From contig JAJYLZ010000006.1 of the NCBI GenBank assembly GCA_021787395.1, positions 1 to 64,000 on the forward strand: a DNA stretch of 64,000 nucleotides, written 5' to 3'. Shown piece after piece: positions 25,227 to 51,223 of the stretch. The notes beneath the pieces were generated by a model that was not told the origin of the DNA, made no database searches, and saw only the letters and a list, made by a program, of their open reading frames with translations. Each line of letters begins with the position of its first letter. Positions within the stretch are counted from its first letter, which is position 1. Both the position numbers and the translations under genes were made by a program. The stretch comes from Chloroflexota bacterium. GTDB taxonomy: Bacteria; Chloroflexota; Limnocylindria; Limnocylindrales; CSP1-4.

Positions 25227-25847
25227 ATGGACCGCCGCGTCCTCATCGCCGCCGTCCGCCTCGGGCTCGCTGCGCTGGCCCTGGTCGCCATCGCTGCGCA
25301 GATCGCCAGCGACGCCATCGCGGGTGCGCTCCAGCCGGTCGACCTCCTGTCCTCGTTCGCGATCCAGAGCAACCTGATCGGGGCCGTCGCGTTCGTGACG
25401 GCGGCGGCCGGCTGGCGGCGGGGCGGCGGGGCGAGCGTGGACCTGCTGCGCGGCGGGGCGGCGGTCTACCTGGCGGCCACGGCCCTCGTCGCCTCGCCGC
25501 TGCTGGCCGGCGCCGATGCCGCCGCCACGATCCCGCGGGCGGGCACGGTGCTCCAGGTCGTGCTCCCGGCCGCGGCGATCGTGGACTGGGTCGTGCTGCC
25601 CCCGCTGACCCGGATCCCGTTCCGGGATTCGCTCCTCTGGCTGGCCTACCCGGTCCTGTGGACCGCCTACACGATGCTGCGCGGACCGGCCGCGGGCTGG
25701 TACCCGTACCCCTTGCTCGACCCCGCCAACGGCGGCAGTGGCATCGTCGCGGCGCGCATCGTCGGGATCCTGGCGCTGGAGATCGCCGTGTGCGTCGTGG
25801 TGTCGGCGCTCAGCCGAAGGGCGCCCTGGCGGCTCTCAGCCGACTGA
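25227..25847 (+). CDS. Pr6Pr-family integral membrane protein
   Basis: The protein has 206 residues with about six hydrophobic helices covering nearly its whole length. The Pr6Pr signatures are recognisable: a helix-ending FAIQSNL motif near residue 46 and LLWLAYPVLWTAYTMLRG followed by WYPYPLLDPANGG near residues 135-165. Members are bacterial six-helix membrane proteins without a defined activity. The start at 25227 follows a TACGAT box and has no Shine-Dalgarno. The 3' end overlaps the convergent histidine kinase gene by 12 nt, so antisense overlap of the two transcripts is unavoidable. Confidence 0.82.
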   Translation: MDRRVLIAAVRLGLAALALVAIAAQIASDAIAGALQPVDLLSSFAIQSNLIGAVAFVTAAAGWRRGGGASVDLLRGGAAVYLAATALVASPLLAGADAAATIPRAGTVLQVVLPAAAIVDWVVLPPLTRIPFRDSLLWLAYPVLWTAYTMLRGPAAGWYPYPLLDPANGGSGIVAARIVGILALEIAVCVVVSALSRRAPWRLSAD

Positions 25848-27107
25848 GGCGCGACCCCAGCTGACGGTGAACCTCGCGCCGCCGGCGGGGGACGTGCCGA
25901 TCCCCCATCGACCGGAAGTCGCGCGCACGATCGCGTCGCCGATCGCGAGGCCCAGCCCGGCGCCGCCGGTCCCGCCCGCCGTGGTGACGGAGCGGTGGAA
26001 GCGGTCGAAGATCCGGGCCCGCTCCTCCTCCGGGATGCCGGGCCCGGCGTCGTCCACCGCCACGAAGGCGCGCCCGGACTCCACGCCAACGGTCACGTCC
26101 ACGGCCCCGCCGTCCGGCGAGTACTTGCAGGCGTTGTCCACCAGCACCCCGACCAGTCGGTCCACCAGCTCCGCCGACGCCGCGATCACGACGGGCTGCG
26201 ACGGCGCGTGCACGGTCAGCTGGAGGTGGCGGGTCTCGGCGACCGCGCCGAACCGGTCGACGGCCTGGCTCGCGAGCACCCCGAGGTCGATCGGCCCGGA
26301 GGGCGGCGGCGCGGCGGCCGCATCGAACCGCGCCAGCCACAGCATGTCCTCGAGCAGCTTGCGCATCCGCCTGGACTCGCGGTCCACCTTGGTGAACGCG
26401 TTGCGGTACCAGGCGGCCTCGCGGTCCTGGGCGAGGGCGAGCGAGGTGTGGGCCTCGATCACCGACAGGGGCGTGCGCAGCTCGTGCGACGCGTCGGCCG
26501 TGAACTCGAGCTGGCGGCGGTGGGCGGCCTCGATCGGCTCTGCCACCCGTCGGCCCACGATGGTGGCCCCGACGAACACGAACCCCAGCAGGAACGGCGC
26601 GATCAGCAGCACGCCCAGGATGATCGTCTGCTGGGCGTCGGCGACCTGCTGCGTCTCCTGCGCGGCGATCACGTACACCGACCCCACCTGCTGGCCCGCG
26701 ATGCGGACGCTGGTCCCGTCGATCGTGGCGTCCTGGGGGGCGCCCACCGTGGTGAGGTCGGCGGGCAGCGCCGGCGTCTGGCTGCCGATCGCGGTCACGG
26801 TGCCGCTCGCGGAGACGGTCCAGATCAGAGTGGGCGGCCCGAACGGGCGGCCCGGGTCTCGGCCGAGACTGGGCGAGCCGCCCGTGCCGCCGGCGTCGCC
26901 GGGAGCCCCGCCCGGGACCTGGTCGCCGGGCGGCAGCCGCCCGAACGCCTGCATCAGCCGCTGGTCGATCTGCGAGGTGAGGTCGCGCGTCGCGAACGCG
27001 ACGACGCCTGCCGAGATCGCGAGGTACACCAGCGCCACCACCCCGGTCGCGGCGAGCGCGACCCGGATGGACTGGCGGCGGACCGCCGGCACGTGGGCCA
27101 TCGTCAT
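25836..27107 (-). CDS. Membrane sensor histidine kinase (redox module A)
   Basis: The protein has 423 residues. It starts at 27107 in an ATGA overlap with the regulator gene, so the pair is translationally coupled. A transmembrane helix (about 12-35), an extracytoplasmic sensor of roughly 120 residues with a Gly/Pro-rich loop, and a second helix (about 160-185) are followed by HisKA (TADASHELRTPLSVIEAH with the phospho-His) and HATPase (LVDNACKYS, VDDAGPGIPEEE, GGAGLGLAI). The sensor shows no domain I know. With the OmpR-like partner it probably controls the cytochrome/ApbE genes just upstream. Confidence 0.9.
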   Translation of the reverse strand: MTMAHVPAVRRQSIRVALAATGVVALVYLAISAGVVAFATRDLTSQIDQRLMQAFGRLPPGDQVPGGAPGDAGGTGGSPSLGRDPGRPFGPPTLIWTVSASGTVTAIGSQTPALPADLTTVGAPQDATIDGTSVRIAGQQVGSVYVIAAQETQQVADAQQTIILGVLLIAPFLLGFVFVGATIVGRRVAEPIEAAHRRQLEFTADASHELRTPLSVIEAHTSLALAQDREAAWYRNAFTKVDRESRRMRKLLEDMLWLARFDAAAAPPPSGPIDLGVLASQAVDRFGAVAETRHLQLTVHAPSQPVVIAASAELVDRLVGVLVDNACKYSPDGGAVDVTVGVESGRAFVAVDDAGPGIPEEERARIFDRFHRSVTTAGGTGGAGLGLAIGDAIVRATSGRWGIGTSPAGGARFTVSWGRASVG

Positions 27108-27772
27108 CCGGCTTCGAGGCGGTAGCCGGAGCCGCGGACGGTCACGATGCGGACCCCCGCGTCGGGCAGCTTGGAGCGCAGGCGCGACATCTGGACGTCG
27201 ATCGCGTTCGACCCCAGCGGCTCGGTCTCGTCGGCCCAGGCGTGCTCGGCGATGGCCTTGCGGTCGACCACCGAGGGCGAGCGGCGCAGCAGCAGCTCGA
27301 GGATCCGGTACTCGGTGGCGGTGAGCGCGACCTCGCGCCCGTCCGCCCGCACGACGTGCGTGACCGGATCGAGCGAGAGCCGCCCGGCGCGCAGCACGGG
27401 CTGGTCCACGCCGCGCGGCCGGCGCTGGAGGGCGCGCACGCGGGCGAGCAGCTCGCCGAAGTCGAACGGCTTGGTCAGGTAGTCGTCGGCGCCGGTGTCG
27501 AGCCCCCGGATGCGGTCCGCCGGCGCGTCCCGGGCGGTCAGCATGAGCAGCGCGGTCGGGCGGTCGTGGCGGCGGGCCCACGAGACGACGTCGATCCCCT
27601 CCGCTCCCGGCATCCGCCAGTCGACGATCGCGACGTCGTACTCGTACCAGCGGAGCTGGTCGATCGCGTCGTCGCCGCGGTCCACGGCGTCCACGTGGTA
27701 GCCCGCGTCGACCAGGCCGAGGACCAGGACGTCGCGGAGCCCCGCGTCGTCCTCGGCCACCAGCACCCGCAT
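27104..27772 (-). CDS. OmpR-family response regulator (redox module A)
   Basis: The protein has 222 residues. The receiver domain has the acidic pair EDD at 7-9, the phosphoacceptor Asp51 in AIVDWRMPG, Thr/Ser in MLTARD, and the Lys in YLTKPF. The C-terminal winged helix (LTATEYRILELLLRRSPSVVDRKAIAEHAW to DVQMSRLRSKL and VRGSGYRLE) is of the OmpR/PhoB type that binds direct repeats. It lies 31 nt downstream of the cytochrome gene and overlaps the kinase gene. Candidate targets are the conserved elements at 25155 and 28444. Confidence 0.92.
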   Translation of the reverse strand: MRVLVAEDDAGLRDVLVLGLVDAGYHVDAVDRGDDAIDQLRWYEYDVAIVDWRMPGAEGIDVVSWARRHDRPTALLMLTARDAPADRIRGLDTGADDYLTKPFDFGELLARVRALQRRPRGVDQPVLRAGRLSLDPVTHVVRADGREVALTATEYRILELLLRRSPSVVDRKAIAEHAWADETEPLGSNAIDVQMSRLRSKLPDAGVRIVTVRGSGYRLEAG

Positions 27773-27803
27773 CGTCCGGACCCCTCGCTCGTCGCAGGCG
27801 GGC

Positions 27804-28364
27804 TCAGCGGGCGAGCGCCCGGGCCCCGAGCACCATCGTCGCACCCCGGTCCACCCACCGCCACGTCGCGGCGCCCGCCACGACGGCGATCGCGGCGGCC
27901 TCGACGCCCAGCATCCACGGAGCCATGGCATCGCTGCCTGCCGTGAGCGTGTGCGCGAACGCGAGGGGCCACATCAGGTAGCTCGTCCAGTGGACCAGCC
28001 GCCACGCCCGCTGGCCGAGGTGCCGCCGCAGCAGGCTGGTGGCGATGAGCGCCACCAGTAGGTACATCGAGATCACGCCGAGGGCGACCGGGACAGGCTT
28101 CCAGGACGACGCGAACGGGACGAGCGCAGCGCCCAGGCCGAGCCGGAGGTAGGGGTCCATGACGGCCGCCAGGACGTGGGTCGCGAGGAAGGCCGTCGAG
28201 AGCAGCGAGACGCGGCGGTGCATCTCGTAGTTGAAGAGCCGGGGCCAGCCGGCGGCCTGGAAGCGGGCGACGGTGACCAGGCCGAACGCCACGCTCGCCG
28301 TCAGCATCAGCAGCGAGACGATCCCGGCCCCGCGGGCCGCGAACCACAGGATCTGGTCGGACAT
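27804..28364 (-). CDS. Four-His ferric-reductase-like membrane cytochrome (redox module A)
   Basis: The protein has 186 residues and about five helices. It is a compact ferric-reductase-like/YedZ-type transmembrane domain. Two histidine pairs on adjacent helices, H49/H63 and H125/H138, have the spacing expected for ligating two stacked b-hemes that carry electrons across the membrane. The paralogue at 48860-49540 has H87/H101 and H163/H176, with the same intervals of 14, 62 and 13 residues. There is no NAD or FAD domain, so it needs an external partner. The ApbE gene upstream suggests that the partner carries covalently bound FMN. Confidence 0.85.
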   Translation of the reverse strand: MSDQILWFAARGAGIVSLLMLTASVAFGLVTVARFQAAGWPRLFNYEMHRRVSLLSTAFLATHVLAAVMDPYLRLGLGAALVPFASSWKPVPVALGVISMYLLVALIATSLLRRHLGQRAWRLVHWTSYLMWPLAFAHTLTAGSDAMAPWMLGVEAAAIAVVAGAATWRWVDRGATMVLGARALAR

Positions 28365-28385
28365 CGAGTGCTCCTCGGTGGGCTG

Positions 28386-28425
28386 GCGGCGGCGGGGCGA
28401 GAGGGGGAGGGGCCCCCGCCGCCGC
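28386..28425. other. Hairpin between apbE and the cytochrome gene
   Basis: GCGGCGGCGGGG (28386-28397) can pair with CCCCGCCGCCGC (28414-28425) around a 16-nt loop. It could attenuate read-through from apbE into the cytochrome gene. Confidence 0.35.
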
Positions 28426-28443
28426 GGTGGAATGCGCTGGGCT

Positions 28444-28478
28444 GAGTGTCGGGACCGGGACCTTTCGGGCCGGTTACG
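28444..28478 (-). promoter_or_regulatory. Conserved 35-nt element, copy 2 (upstream of the module A cytochrome)
   Basis: CTTTCG (28462-28467), N5, GTTACG (28473-28478). It overlaps the last codons and the stop of apbE and lies about 80-115 nt before the cytochrome start. It implies a separate promoter or operator for the cytochrome-regulator-kinase part of the module. Confidence 0.5.
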
Positions 28479-29415
28479 GGGCGGCCCCGCCCGTCGGCTC
28501 GGGCCAGCCGCCGAGGCGGACGACCGTCCCGTCCTGAGCCACGAGGCGGGCCGGCAGCCCGGCCGAGGCGAGCCAGTCCAGGGCGGCGGGTCCCAGCACG
28601 ATGCACGCCGTGGACGCGGCGTTGGCGGCCTCGCAGGTCGCCGCGACGACCGTGGCCGTGCGCCACGGGGTGTCGGCGGGCAGGCCCGTCCGCGGATCGA
28701 CGATGTGGTGGGCGGTGACGCCGTCGGACGAGGACCAGCGGCGGACTGTGGTCGACGAGGTGGCGAGGCCGCCGCGCTCGATCGCGACCACCTCGCCCGG
28801 GCCGTCCGGGTCCGCCCGGCTGTCCTCGGCCATCAGGATCCGCCAGCCGCCCTCGGGCGCGGGACCCGCCACCGCGACGTCGCCGCCCAGGCTCACCAGC
28901 ACGCCGGCGCCCGGGCCGGCCGCGCCGAGCGCGGCGGCGGCGCACAGGTCGGACGCGAGGCCCTTGCCGGTGGACCCGAGGTCGAGCTCGACGTCGGTCG
29001 GGACCCGTACGGTGCGGGCGGCGGCGTCGAAGGCGATGACCGACCAGCCGGGCACCGGCGCGAGCTTGAACTCGATGGGGCGCGCGGTGCCGGCGATCCG
29101 GTCGAAGTCGTCGTCGTAGCCGGTGATTCGAAGGGCCCGGCCGACGGTTGGGTCCACCGCGCCGCCGGTCGCCCGGGCCGCCTCCAGCGCGCCGGCGAGC
29201 GCGCGGGCGAGCAGGGGCGAAACGCGCACCTGCGTGCCGCGCCGGGCGTTGAGCGCCACCAGCTCCGAGTCGGGCCGGAAGCGGGAGTAGGCCAGGTCCA
29301 CCTCGTCCAGGACGCGCTCCACGGCCGCCCGGGCGGCGGCCAGGTCGCCGTCGCTGACGATCAGGCGGACGCCCGTGCCCAGGGCGCGCCAGTCGGCGGT
29401 CTGCAGCACCGTCAC
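28474..29415 (-). CDS. apbE: ApbE-family FAD:protein FMN transferase (redox module A)
   Basis: ApbE cleaves FAD and attaches FMN through a phosphoester to Ser or Thr of exported proteins. This one has 313 residues starting at a GTG that overlaps the stop of the preceding small gene (GTGA). Family motifs include DLAYSRFRPDSELVALN, DPTVGRAL, ELDLGSTGKGLASDLCAA, SLGGDVAV, the TSSTTVRRW stretch, and AHHIVDPRTGLPA. No signal peptide is evident at the chosen start, so it may act before export or use an undetected signal. No FMN-binding acceptor protein is encoded next to it. Confidence 0.9.
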   Translation of the reverse strand: MTVLQTADWRALGTGVRLIVSDGDLAAARAAVERVLDEVDLAYSRFRPDSELVALNARRGTQVRVSPLLARALAGALEAARATGGAVDPTVGRALRITGYDDDFDRIAGTARPIEFKLAPVPGWSVIAFDAAARTVRVPTDVELDLGSTGKGLASDLCAAAALGAAGPGAGVLVSLGGDVAVAGPAPEGGWRILMAEDSRADPDGPGEVVAIERGGLATSSTTVRRWSSSDGVTAHHIVDPRTGLPADTPWRTATVVAATCEAANAASTACIVLGPAALDWLASAGLPARLVAQDGTVVRLGGWPEPTGGAAP

Positions 29416-29735
29416 GAGCCCCCGGACGAGACGTGCCCGAAGCCGGAGGTGGACGTGACGGCCGGGGCGGTGAACGTCGTGCCGGAGGTGCTGGCCGTGG
29501 TGCCGGACGTGTTGGCCGTGGTGCCGGAAGTGACGCCCGACGGGGCGGTCGCGGCGACCGACGTCGTGTAGGCCGTGGCGGCCGACGCGGTCGCGTGCCC
29601 GGCATAGGTCGCCGCCGCCAGGAAGCTGAAGCCGCTCGTGGCGGCCATGCCCAGGGCGGCGGTCCCGATGGTCAGCTTGCGGAGCCGGGCGAGGTTCCGG
29701 GTTCGTGCCTCGCGGGCCGTGTCGGTCGTGTTCAT
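29412..29735 (-). CDS. Small Thr/Ser-rich membrane-anchored protein (redox module A)
   Basis: The protein has 107 residues from the ATG at 29735. A basic cytosolic N-terminus (AREARTRNLARLRK) precedes one hydrophobic helix (about 21-44). The extracytoplasmic tail is dominated by Ala, Thr, Ser and Gly, with the 7-residue unit TANTSGT repeated. The tail holds many SGTT segments but not the Asp-containing [ST]GA[ST] flavinylation motif. It is the first gene of the module and overlaps apbE by 4 nt, so tight co-translation is expected. It may be an ApbE substrate or a cytochrome partner; neither is shown. Confidence 0.65.
   Translation of the reverse strand: MNTTDTAREARTRNLARLRKLTIGTAALGMAATSGFSFLAAATYAGHATASAATAYTTSVAATAPSGVTSGTTANTSGTTASTSGTTFTAPAVTSTSGFGHVSSGGS
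29479..29541 (-). repeat. Three tandem 21-bp repeats in the small module A gene
   Basis: Units at 29479-29499, 29500-29520 and 29521-29541 begin GTGCCGGA on the plus strand. The first two differ at two positions; the third diverges at its end. They encode the repeated Thr/Ser/Gly heptapeptide. Confidence 0.75.
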
Positions 29736-48859: not shown

Positions 48860-49540
48860 CTAGGGGGCGGCGGCCGACCGGGCCCGGCGCTGCGCCCGCT
48901 CGGCCACCGAGATCCCGATCCGGTAGGCCAGCAGGAAGGCCACCGCCGTCATGGCGGCGAGGTAGATCCACTGGGCCCAGGGACGGCCGCTGTCCGTGCC
49001 CGCCGCGATCCCGTGGGCGGTCGCGCCCGCGAACACCAGGAACGTCAGGTAGTGGAGCGCCCGCCAGGCGCGCTGGCCGGTCCGGTGCCGAGCGTAGAAG
49101 CTGGCCGTGACGACGGCCCACAGGTACAGCGCCGCCTGGCCCACGCCCACGGCGAGCGGCGCGTACGGCGCCTGCCCGGGCACCAGGATCTGGGCGGCGG
49201 AGAAGGGCATCGACGCGTCGAGCCCGAGCAGCGCCCCGTGGACGGCGGCCATGCCGAGGCCGATCGTGGCGAGGTCCTGGTGGAGCGTGAAGTTGACCGG
49301 CCGGTGGGCGACCGCGTCCAGCACCTTGCTCGACAGCAGCAGGCCGAACAACACCGAGAGCGTCATGGCCAGGTAGGCCAGCCAGGCGAACAGCCGCTCG
49401 AACAGCCACGGCAGGCCCGACGGGTTCGCGGCGAGCACGGCCAGCAGCCCCGACACCACGCCGGGCAGCGTCGCGCCCAGGACGATGCCCGCTGCGATGG
49501 CGGGCATCCCGAATCGGACCAGCAGGGTGCGCTGGTCCAT
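48860..49540 (-). CDS. Four-His ferric-reductase-like membrane cytochrome (redox module B)
   Basis: The protein has 226 residues and about six helices. The heme-ligand candidates H87/H101 and H163/H176 are spaced exactly as in the module A protein (intervals 14, 62 and 13), although the rest of the sequence has diverged. An extra N-terminal helix region (residues 1-50) distinguishes it. It ends in a basic cytosolic tail (ERAQRRARSAAAP). It follows apbE by 11 nt and is the last gene of the four-gene operon. It presumably moves electrons between the membrane and an exported flavoprotein; the partner is unidentified. Confidence 0.84.
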   Translation of the reverse strand: MDQRTLLVRFGMPAIAAGIVLGATLPGVVSGLLAVLAANPSGLPWLFERLFAWLAYLAMTLSVLFGLLLSSKVLDAVAHRPVNFTLHQDLATIGLGMAAVHGALLGLDASMPFSAAQILVPGQAPYAPLAVGVGQAALYLWAVVTASFYARHRTGQRAWRALHYLTFLVFAGATAHGIAAGTDSGRPWAQWIYLAAMTAVAFLLAYRIGISVAERAQRRARSAAAP

Positions 49541-49551
49541 GCCGCGGTACC

Positions 49552-50460
49552 TCACGCCAGCCAGCGCACCATCCCGTGGGCGGCGTGGAGCTCGCCGCGC
49601 TCGGTGAGCAGGAGGGCGCCCAGAACGCCCGGGCGGTCCAGCAGGGCCATCGCCCGGGCGGTGCCGGCGATCACGGCCGTCTTGGCGAGCACCTCCGCCT
49701 CGCGGGCCGACGCCGCCACGACCGTCGCCTGGATCAGGTCGGTGGCGGCCGGGCGCCAGGTGCGCGGGTCGATCAGGTGGTGCGTGTCGCCGGACGGGTG
49801 GGCCCACCGGTGGACGCTGGTGCCCGATGTGGCGACGCCGAACCGGCCGGGCGCCTCGCCTCCTCGGAACTGGAGCACCGCCAGCAGCTCGTCGTCGTCC
49901 CGCGGGTCCGCGACGCCCAGGCCCCAGGCGTCGCCCGCGTCGAGGCGCAGCGCGATGTCCCCGTCGGCGTCGACCAGCGCCGAGCGACCGGGCGTGATGG
50001 CGAGCGCCCGGTCGGCCAGCCAGCCCTTCGCCACGCCGTCGAGGTCGAAGCGGACGCCCGGCTCGCGCCGTACGGTGCTGGCCCGGGGGCCGCGGTCGAG
50101 CGACCAGCGGCGGCTCGCGGACAGCGGCGGCGGCGACTCCACGCCGGCCTCGGCGGCCAGCCTCGCATCGAGCATCGCGACGTCCACCAGGCCGTCGGAC
50201 AGGCCCTCCGCGGCCCGCGCCCAGTCGAGCACGGCCGTCAGCGTGGGGCCGACGCGGACCCGGCTCGACGGCGCCGCGTTGCAGCGCATCAGCTCGGACG
50301 CCGGGTCGTGGCGGGTGAGCCGGGAGGCCCAGGCCTCCATCCGGTCGAGCACGGCCGAGAGCTGCGCCCGCCGCACGTCGCCCGTGGCGTGCACCGCCAC
50401 CTCGCCGCCCATCATCGGCCGGCGGGCCTCCGCCGTGGCGGGGACGGCGAGGTCCGTCAC
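49552..50460 (-). CDS. apbE: ApbE-family FAD:protein FMN transferase (redox module B)
   Basis: The protein has 302 residues from a GTG that overlaps the upstream stop (GTGA). It shares the ApbE framework with the module A copy: MEAWASRLTRHDPASELMRCN, RFDLDGVAKGWLADRAL, VDADGDIALR, ATSGTSVHRWAHPSGDTHHLIDPRTWRPA. Like its paralogue it shows no signal peptide. The two copies are clearly diverged, so they are old duplicates or separate acquisitions and may flavinylate different targets. Confidence 0.88.
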   Translation of the reverse strand: MTDLAVPATAEARRPMMGGEVAVHATGDVRRAQLSAVLDRMEAWASRLTRHDPASELMRCNAAPSSRVRVGPTLTAVLDWARAAEGLSDGLVDVAMLDARLAAEAGVESPPPLSASRRWSLDRGPRASTVRREPGVRFDLDGVAKGWLADRALAITPGRSALVDADGDIALRLDAGDAWGLGVADPRDDDELLAVLQFRGGEAPGRFGVATSGTSVHRWAHPSGDTHHLIDPRTWRPAATDLIQATVVAASAREAEVLAKTAVIAGTARAMALLDRPGVLGALLLTERGELHAAHGMVRWLA

Positions 50461-50927
50461 GGCCGTCCGGACTGGCGGGTGACGGTCTGGATGATGACCC
50501 GCGGCGTCGGCCTCGGGGTCGCGCGCGGCGCCGGCGTCGCGGGGGCGGGCGTCGTGTTGACCCCAGCGTCGGGCGGCAGCGTCTGGCCGGGGGCGAGCGT
50601 GATCACGTGGGTCACGTGGATCACCGAGGGCTGCGGCTGGGCGGTCGGGTCGGCCGCGGCGGCCGCCGACGTGTCGATCGTGGTGACCGCTGCGGGCTGG
50701 GGCAGGATCGACGGCAGCATCGCGCTCGCGAGCGCCGAGGCCGAGGCCAGTCCGGCGAGGCCGACCACCATGCGGACGCCCGCCGACTGGGCGCCGGCGC
50801 GACGGCGGTCCCCGAGCTCGGCGCCCGCGCGGTGGTGGAGCGTCAGGTGGGGCTGGTGCGAGTCGGGTCGCGGTCGCGCCTGCGTCTGCGGGCCCGGGCG
50901 GACGCCCGGCTTGCGGGGATCGGCCAT
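50457..50927 (-). CDS. Small membrane-anchored Pro-rich protein 2 (redox module B)
   Basis: The protein has 156 residues. A basic cytosolic N-terminus of 50 residues (many Arg, His and Pro) leads to one helix at about 53-75. The extracytoplasmic part has a likely beta segment (VIHVTHVITLAPGQTLPP) and a Pro/Ala/Thr linker, ending TPRVIIQTVTRQSGRP. The ending resembles TPSPIIIQRVVSAGGE in the neighbouring small protein, so the two may share a short functional motif. The start overlaps the upstream stop by one base (TGATG). Unknown family. Confidence 0.62.
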   Translation of the reverse strand: MADPRKPGVRPGPQTQARPRPDSHQPHLTLHHRAGAELGDRRRAGAQSAGVRMVVGLAGLASASALASAMLPSILPQPAAVTTIDTSAAAAADPTAQPQPSVIHVTHVITLAPGQTLPPDAGVNTTPAPATPAPRATPRPTPRVIIQTVTRQSGRP

Positions 50928-51223
50928 CAGTCGTCTCCGCCGCCGCCGTCGTGCTCGCCGCCCGCGCTGACCACGCGCTGGATGATGATCGGCGAGGGGG
51001 TGGGCGCGGCCGTGGGCGTCGGGGTGGGCGGCACCACGTACACTGTGTCGATCTGGGTGACGGGCGCCGGCGGCTGGTCCGGCACGGTGGCGGCGGCCGG
51101 GTCGGCGGCCAGCTGGGCCACGGGTGCCGGCGCCGCGGGCGCCAGGCCGAACAGCGCGAGGCCCACGGCCAGGACGGCCGAGGCCGTGAGCGACGCGGCG
51201 AGGAGCGCCACGCGGGTGAGCAT
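50927..51223 (-). CDS. Small membrane-anchored Pro-rich protein 1 (redox module B)
   Basis: The protein has 98 residues from the ATG at 51223 (GGGAG upstream). A hydrophobic N-terminal helix (about 4-30) is followed by an Ala/Pro-rich segment, a short beta-like TQIDTVYVVPP, a Thr/Pro linker and SPIIIQRVVSAGGEHDGGGGDD at the end. It is the first gene of the module B operon, corresponding in position to the small Thr-rich protein of module A, though without sequence similarity. No flavinylation motif of the [ST]GA[ST] type is present. Confidence 0.6.
   Translation of the reverse strand: MLTRVALLAASLTASAVLAVGLALFGLAPAAPAPVAQLAADPAAATVPDQPPAPVTQIDTVYVVPPTPTPTAAPTPSPIIIQRVVSAGGEHDGGGGDD

Follow-up and report, generated by a model that had tools for sequence, protein, structure and literature searches.

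Which protein receives flavin from an ApbE enzyme, a flavin adenine dinucleotide (FAD):protein flavin mononucleotide (FMN) transferase, when no FMN-binding domain is encoded beside it? This question is raised by a group of five genes, here called module A, in a 64,000-nucleotide (nt) stretch of a Chloroflexota genome (assembly GCA_021787395.1, contig JAJYLZ010000006.1, positions 1 to 64,000; hereafter the window). We consider it probable, from sequence comparison, that the substrate is the small protein encoded directly upstream of apbE, and that this protein is a flavin carrier without a fold. On balance we also favour the wider reading that it represents a natural class of flavoproteins lacking a flavin-binding fold, in which ApbE would attach FMN to the last residue of an arm that is disordered, anchored in the membrane and acts as a swinging electron carrier for a two-haem transmembrane cytochrome; many Chloroflexota and Actinomycetota would have such proteins, and gene tables would often miss them.

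All five genes of module A lie on the minus strand. The first encodes the small protein (107 residues, 29412..29735; hereafter tail protein 1), which matched no Pfam or NCBIfam family. It is followed by an A-type ApbE without a signal peptide (28474..29415; PF02424, 3e-51), by an MsrQ-like (ferric-reductase-like) transmembrane cytochrome (27804..28364; PF01794 Ferric_reduct, 5e-9), by an OmpR-type response regulator (27104..27772; PF00072 and PF00486), and, finally, by a histidine kinase (25836..27107; PF00512 and PF02518). The GTG start of apbE shares 4 nt (GTGA) with the stop of the small gene, the kinase and response-regulator genes likewise share 4 nt (ATGA), and a gap of 109 nt separates apbE from the cytochrome gene. 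A first-pass annotation of this DNA had described five genes in one direction with 4-nt overlaps at both ends of the group, and had named an ApbE, a four-His cytochrome and a two-component system; the coordinates and the Pfam matches bear this out, and the four histidines (His 49, 63, 125 and 138) are invariant in 38 homologues of the cytochrome. It had also remarked that the locus encodes no FMN-binding domain, and that a standard protein of this kind elsewhere in the genome would speak against its proposal. No FMN_bind domain (PF04205) was detected in the locus or in the genome, which is 3.45 Mb long, 92% complete and has ApbE matches at four loci.

The C-terminus of the protein encoded upstream of apbE

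The predicted structure of tail protein 1 has a helix at about residues 3-43 followed by low-confidence coil, with no strands. This protein had previously been viewed as an anchored Thr/Ser-repeat protein and a possible FMN carrier. Its size, helix and repeats stand, but the conserved part is the C-terminal tail, ending in HVSSGGS immediately before the stop codon, and the internal Thr/Ser repeats form a variable linker. The role of carrier is supported by the comparisons below, with the C-terminal Ser, not the repeats, as the likely acceptor; the internal TSGTT repeats were considered as acceptors and rejected because they are not kept in homologues. The codons of HVSSGGS-stop (29412..29435, minus strand) encode the proposed flavinylation target, of which the last Ser is the proposed acceptor.

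Homologues of the window's ApbE were chosen by ApbE similarity alone, through class-wide whole-genome searches and from 80 named contigs, and the sample spans Chloroflexota, Dormibacterota and Actinomycetota. The A-type set comprises 101 distinct loci in which an open reading frame (ORF) with a membrane helix ends no more than 330 nt upstream of apbE. Repeatedly, the gene directly upstream encodes a protein made of one helix and a Ser/Thr/Ala/Gly/Pro linker, whose exact C-terminus is SSGGS, STGGS, TTGGS, TSGAS, TTGAS, SGAT or similar. The pattern [ST]G[GAS][ST]-stop was found in 67 of the 101 upstream proteins, against 1.08 expected when the last 60 residues of each protein are shuffled; the looser pattern [ST]x[GAS][ST]-stop was found in 80 (8.1 expected by shuffling), and 82 of the proteins have Ser at the final position. 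When 31 diverse tail proteins were aligned, only two columns were invariant, those of the initiator Met and the terminal Ser; the linkers have strongly diverged, yet the last residues are constant across phyla. The tail codons differ at all four positions, with all synonymous codons in use, and the distance from tail to apbE varies, so that the conservation acts at the protein level. The combination of ApbE, cytochrome and small protein, for which a neighbourhood search had been suggested, recurs widely in Chloroflexota and Actinomycetota. At one locus (L049, genome G036) two tandem tail proteins precede a single apbE and end in SGGSG and SGGSH, so the proposed acceptor can have one or two residues after it.

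The target of ApbE is [S/T]GA[S/T] (PMC8238504), or in full D-x-x-[S/T]-G-A-[S/T], where replacement of the Asp has only minor effects; seven residues of this kind at a protein terminus suffice for flavinylation (PMC12052999). Three Streptomyces tails end in DSTSGAS, which is the complete seven-residue motif with the acceptor position as the last residue, and tails of other homologues carry SGAS, TGAS or SGAT. FMN_bind proteins from the window's own class carry SGAT. The cytochrome was also considered as the target and was rejected, since [ST]GA[ST] is absent from the sequence of the window's cytochrome. The window's ApbE scores 174.8 bits against PF02424 (cut-off 25.6), aligns with solved ApbEs, and retains the catalytic Ser and His (S220/S221 and H237; Ser241 and His257 in V. 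cholerae).

Several observations weigh against flavinylation of the tail. The window's own tail, SGGS, has Gly for Ala and lacks the Asp of the motif, and in the alignment to solved ApbEs the window's enzyme has Asn265 where V. cholerae has the catalytic Asp285. No signal peptide was found on this ApbE, whose homology begins at most 8 residues from the start codon, and most loci leave no room for one ahead of the ApbE homology; FMN addition would consequently have to come before export. Cytosolic ApbEs do exist (PMC12052999). Furthermore, the tail homologues are related to one another, so that the counts are not independent, and 18 of the 101 upstream membrane ORFs, about one in six, have no recognisable tail; at some of these loci (L084, L101, L120) the tail gene lies elsewhere in the cluster.

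A second tail locus and the divergence of ApbE with its proposed substrate

The pattern HV[ST][ST]GGS-stop occurs twice in the whole genome of the window, and a reversed control pattern not at all. One site is that of tail protein 1; the other ends tail protein 2, encoded on contig 95, and both read HVSSGGS. The terminal 24-base stretches of the two genes differ at 10 positions, all of them synonymous. The N-terminal region of tail protein 2 is 51% identical to that of tail protein 1 over 47 residues, and BLASTP aligned no part of the linker. At the contig 95 locus (L256, 2201-4877, minus strand) the gene for tail protein 2 precedes those for another PF01794 cytochrome, a NuoF-like protein (PF01512, PF10589) and a ferredoxin, and no apbE lies among these genes. 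The locus is kept in G004, from the window's own genus, and in genomes G002, G003 and G009. The tail is thus conserved away from apbE and beside a cytochrome. The window's ApbE probably also serves tail protein 2, and the earlier description of module A as self-contained is not supported. In G003, which belongs to the same genus, the gene for tail protein 1 and its cytochrome gene are broken into fragments, a state that may reflect an assembly fault; apbE is open there and under selection, with a ratio of nonsynonymous to synonymous substitution rates of ~0.18 relative to the window, similar to other pairs, and tail protein 2 is intact and ends in HVTSGGS.

The phylogeny of ApbE tracks substrate type. 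Among 172 ApbE loci, 85 are of the SGGS type, 25 of the QSG type (that of module B, described below) and 14 are adjacent to FMN_bind. In a tree of 68 ApbEs, a fully supported branch sets the FMN_bind enzymes apart from all others, and another does so for the QSG enzymes; the SGGS enzymes take three changes, and the substrate labels require 4 changes in all, against 29.6 when they are shuffled. A cytochrome gene on the same strand accompanies 78 of the 85 SGGS loci, 24 of the 25 QSG loci and one of the 14 FMN_bind loci, the last count being possibly too low because these stretches are mostly 4 kb long.

An independent collection gave six actinobacterial plasmid records, five of them with the order tail, ApbE, ferric-reductase-like protein, NuoF-like protein and ferredoxin. 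The six tail ORFs end in TRAS, SAGS, TKGS, TAAS, SGGS and TRAS; the gene table of the plasmid database, which is known to be incomplete, omits five of the six. The unlisted ORFs, upstream of apbE (L244, L245, L246, L247, L248), come from Rhodococcus, Cnuibacter, Gordonia, Streptomyces and Arthrobacter.

Together, these observations suggest how module A may work. The N-terminal helix would anchor the tail protein in the membrane with its C-terminus outside, as charge bias predicts for 82 of 83 tail proteins, and a disordered linker of ~45-160 residues would lead to the short [S/T]-G-[G/A]-S target at the extreme C-terminus. ApbE would move FMN from FAD onto the last Ser, a single ApbE serving both tail proteins in the window's genome. 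The tethered flavin could then swap electrons with the MsrQ-like cytochrome, with a partner outside the membrane as either their recipient or their source. The predicted structure of this cytochrome (predicted local distance difference test score, pLDDT, 91) shows, against the six transmembrane helices expected of the MsrQ-like type, five that are long and a single short one, and its closest solved folds, at modest E-values, belong to SpNOX (a bacterial NADPH oxidase), STEAP and human NOX; its four histidines point to two haems. At the second locus and in the actinobacterial operons, the cytochrome probably receives electrons from reduced nicotinamide adenine dinucleotide (NADH) by way of the NuoF-like protein and ferredoxin, and quinol is one possible donor for module A. 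Control of module A would lie with the two-component system, and the earlier view of a regulated electron-transfer unit is supported. A VIT-family gene lies near one plasmid cluster and, given the VIT association of known systems (PMC8238504), iron reduction is one option for the function.

Other possible roles for the conserved tail

The alternative that survives best, although we regard it as unlikely, is that the tail is a docking signal for ApbE, the cytochrome or another partner, is not itself flavinylated, and that ApbE modifies a different protein. Most tails do have neither the Asp nor the Ala of the classical motif, and those of module B end in TRQSG, which is no known ApbE target. 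However, a docking signal would not readily account for the canonical motif standing exactly at the C-terminus in Streptomyces or for ApbE clades that follow substrate type, and a different acceptor is hard to place: no FMN_bind domain was detected in the window's genome, and no other candidate for an ApbE target is conserved in these clusters.

Less probable still is that the anchor is a cleaved signal peptide, so that the tail would be freed as a small soluble flavopeptide acting as a diffusing electron shuttle. The helices of the tail proteins are weakly hydrophobic and Ala-x-Ala follows the helix in several homologues, as this idea would have it, but cleavage sites are not conserved among the sequences inspected, a lipobox-like LAAC sequence would anchor one homologue (L142), and linker lengths stay above ~45 residues. 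Tat export is possible: Arg pairs are present in 67 of 83 tail proteins, but not in the window's, and the full twin-arginine consensus cannot be clearly recognised.

We give very little weight to the idea that tail protein 1 could be an FMN_bind domain that has diverged strongly. FMN_bind proteins carrying SGAT do pair with ApbE in the same class; nevertheless, neither tail protein 1 nor any of 31 members matches FMN_bind, the linker is variable and of low complexity with no strand in the predicted structure, and the ApbEs of the FMN_bind type form a separate clade. That the tail reflects a mere constraint on DNA, imposed where the gene runs into the start of apbE or its ribosome-binding site, is next to impossible, for although the window's tail codons do overlap the apbE start, the homologues show full synonymous codon variety and a wide range of spacing, and tail protein 2 is encoded with different codons far from any apbE.

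Known flavinylation systems and further ApbE types

The first-pass annotation had called the composition of module A unfamiliar, but the pairing of ApbE with an MsrQ-like cytochrome has already been described. A 2021 survey found MsrQ-like flavinylation systems, made of apbE and a PF01794 cytochrome, to be common in Actinobacteria (Meheust et al. 2021, PMC8238504). As in module A, apbE adjoins the cytochrome gene in these systems, sometimes with a NuoF-like protein or a VIT transporter. They typically include an FMN_bind protein, not required by definition, where module A has a tail predicted to be disordered, and module A differs further in its ApbE without a signal peptide. Since the survey dropped FMN-binding and ApbE genes without a predicted signal peptide or lipid site (PMC8238504), clusters of the module A type could have been left out. 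The type of system is consequently known, and what seems new is the kind of substrate, a tether predicted to be disordered and to carry its acceptor at the very end.

Substrates of ApbE other than FMN_bind proteins have also been reported, namely DUF2271, DUF3570, FMN_red and Flavodoxin_4, which resemble the tail protein in being recognised by gene neighbourhood and a [S/T]GA[S/T]-like motif (PMC8238504, PMC10979944); in FMN_red the flavinylation site lies, similarly, on an unstructured C-terminal extension. All four have a folded domain, whereas none is predicted in the tail protein, whose proposed acceptor is the last residue, and FMN_red and Flavodoxin_4 have a pre-existing flavin site. The tail protein would be a natural counterpart of the flavin-tag, an engineered terminal seven-residue target (PMC12052999). 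In the open-licence part of PubMed Central, searches on ApbE with C-terminal tails, on disordered substrates, and on Streptomyces or cytoplasmic ApbE yielded no account of such substrates.

The survey left some apbE-carrying genomes without identified substrates (PMC8238504), and terminal-tail substrates, if confirmed, would explain part of them. Covalent flavin carriers would then not depend on a folded site for the flavin; a flexible arm tipped with a target would suffice. The gene for an MsrQ-like cytochrome next to one for a one-helix protein ending in [ST]G[GA]S would furthermore provide a simple signature for unannotated electron-transfer systems in Actinomycetota and Chloroflexota.

The window holds a second ApbE cluster, module B (48860-51223, minus strand), in which a B-type ApbE and a PF01794-like cytochrome are accompanied by two small proteins with one helix each (50457-50927 and 50927-51223). 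In all 24 related loci the small protein adjoining apbE ends in TRQSGxP or TTQSGxxP; the first small protein has an acidic Gly/Asp tail at its C-terminus. Module B was considered as the same system as module A and was set apart, its TRQSG tails being non-canonical; as a lead, these tails may mark a variant running in parallel, with a target of another kind. A third ApbE type is present on contig 43 of the window's genome (L002) and at L028, L240 and L241, where an upstream membrane protein ends in ASGKP or TASGKPC, possibly another class of substrate. Next to module A, and divergent from it, the window encodes a secreted-repeat protein of the Lipoprotein_15 family (PF03640; 29868-30455, plus strand), whose gene also adjoins module A in G004 and G003.

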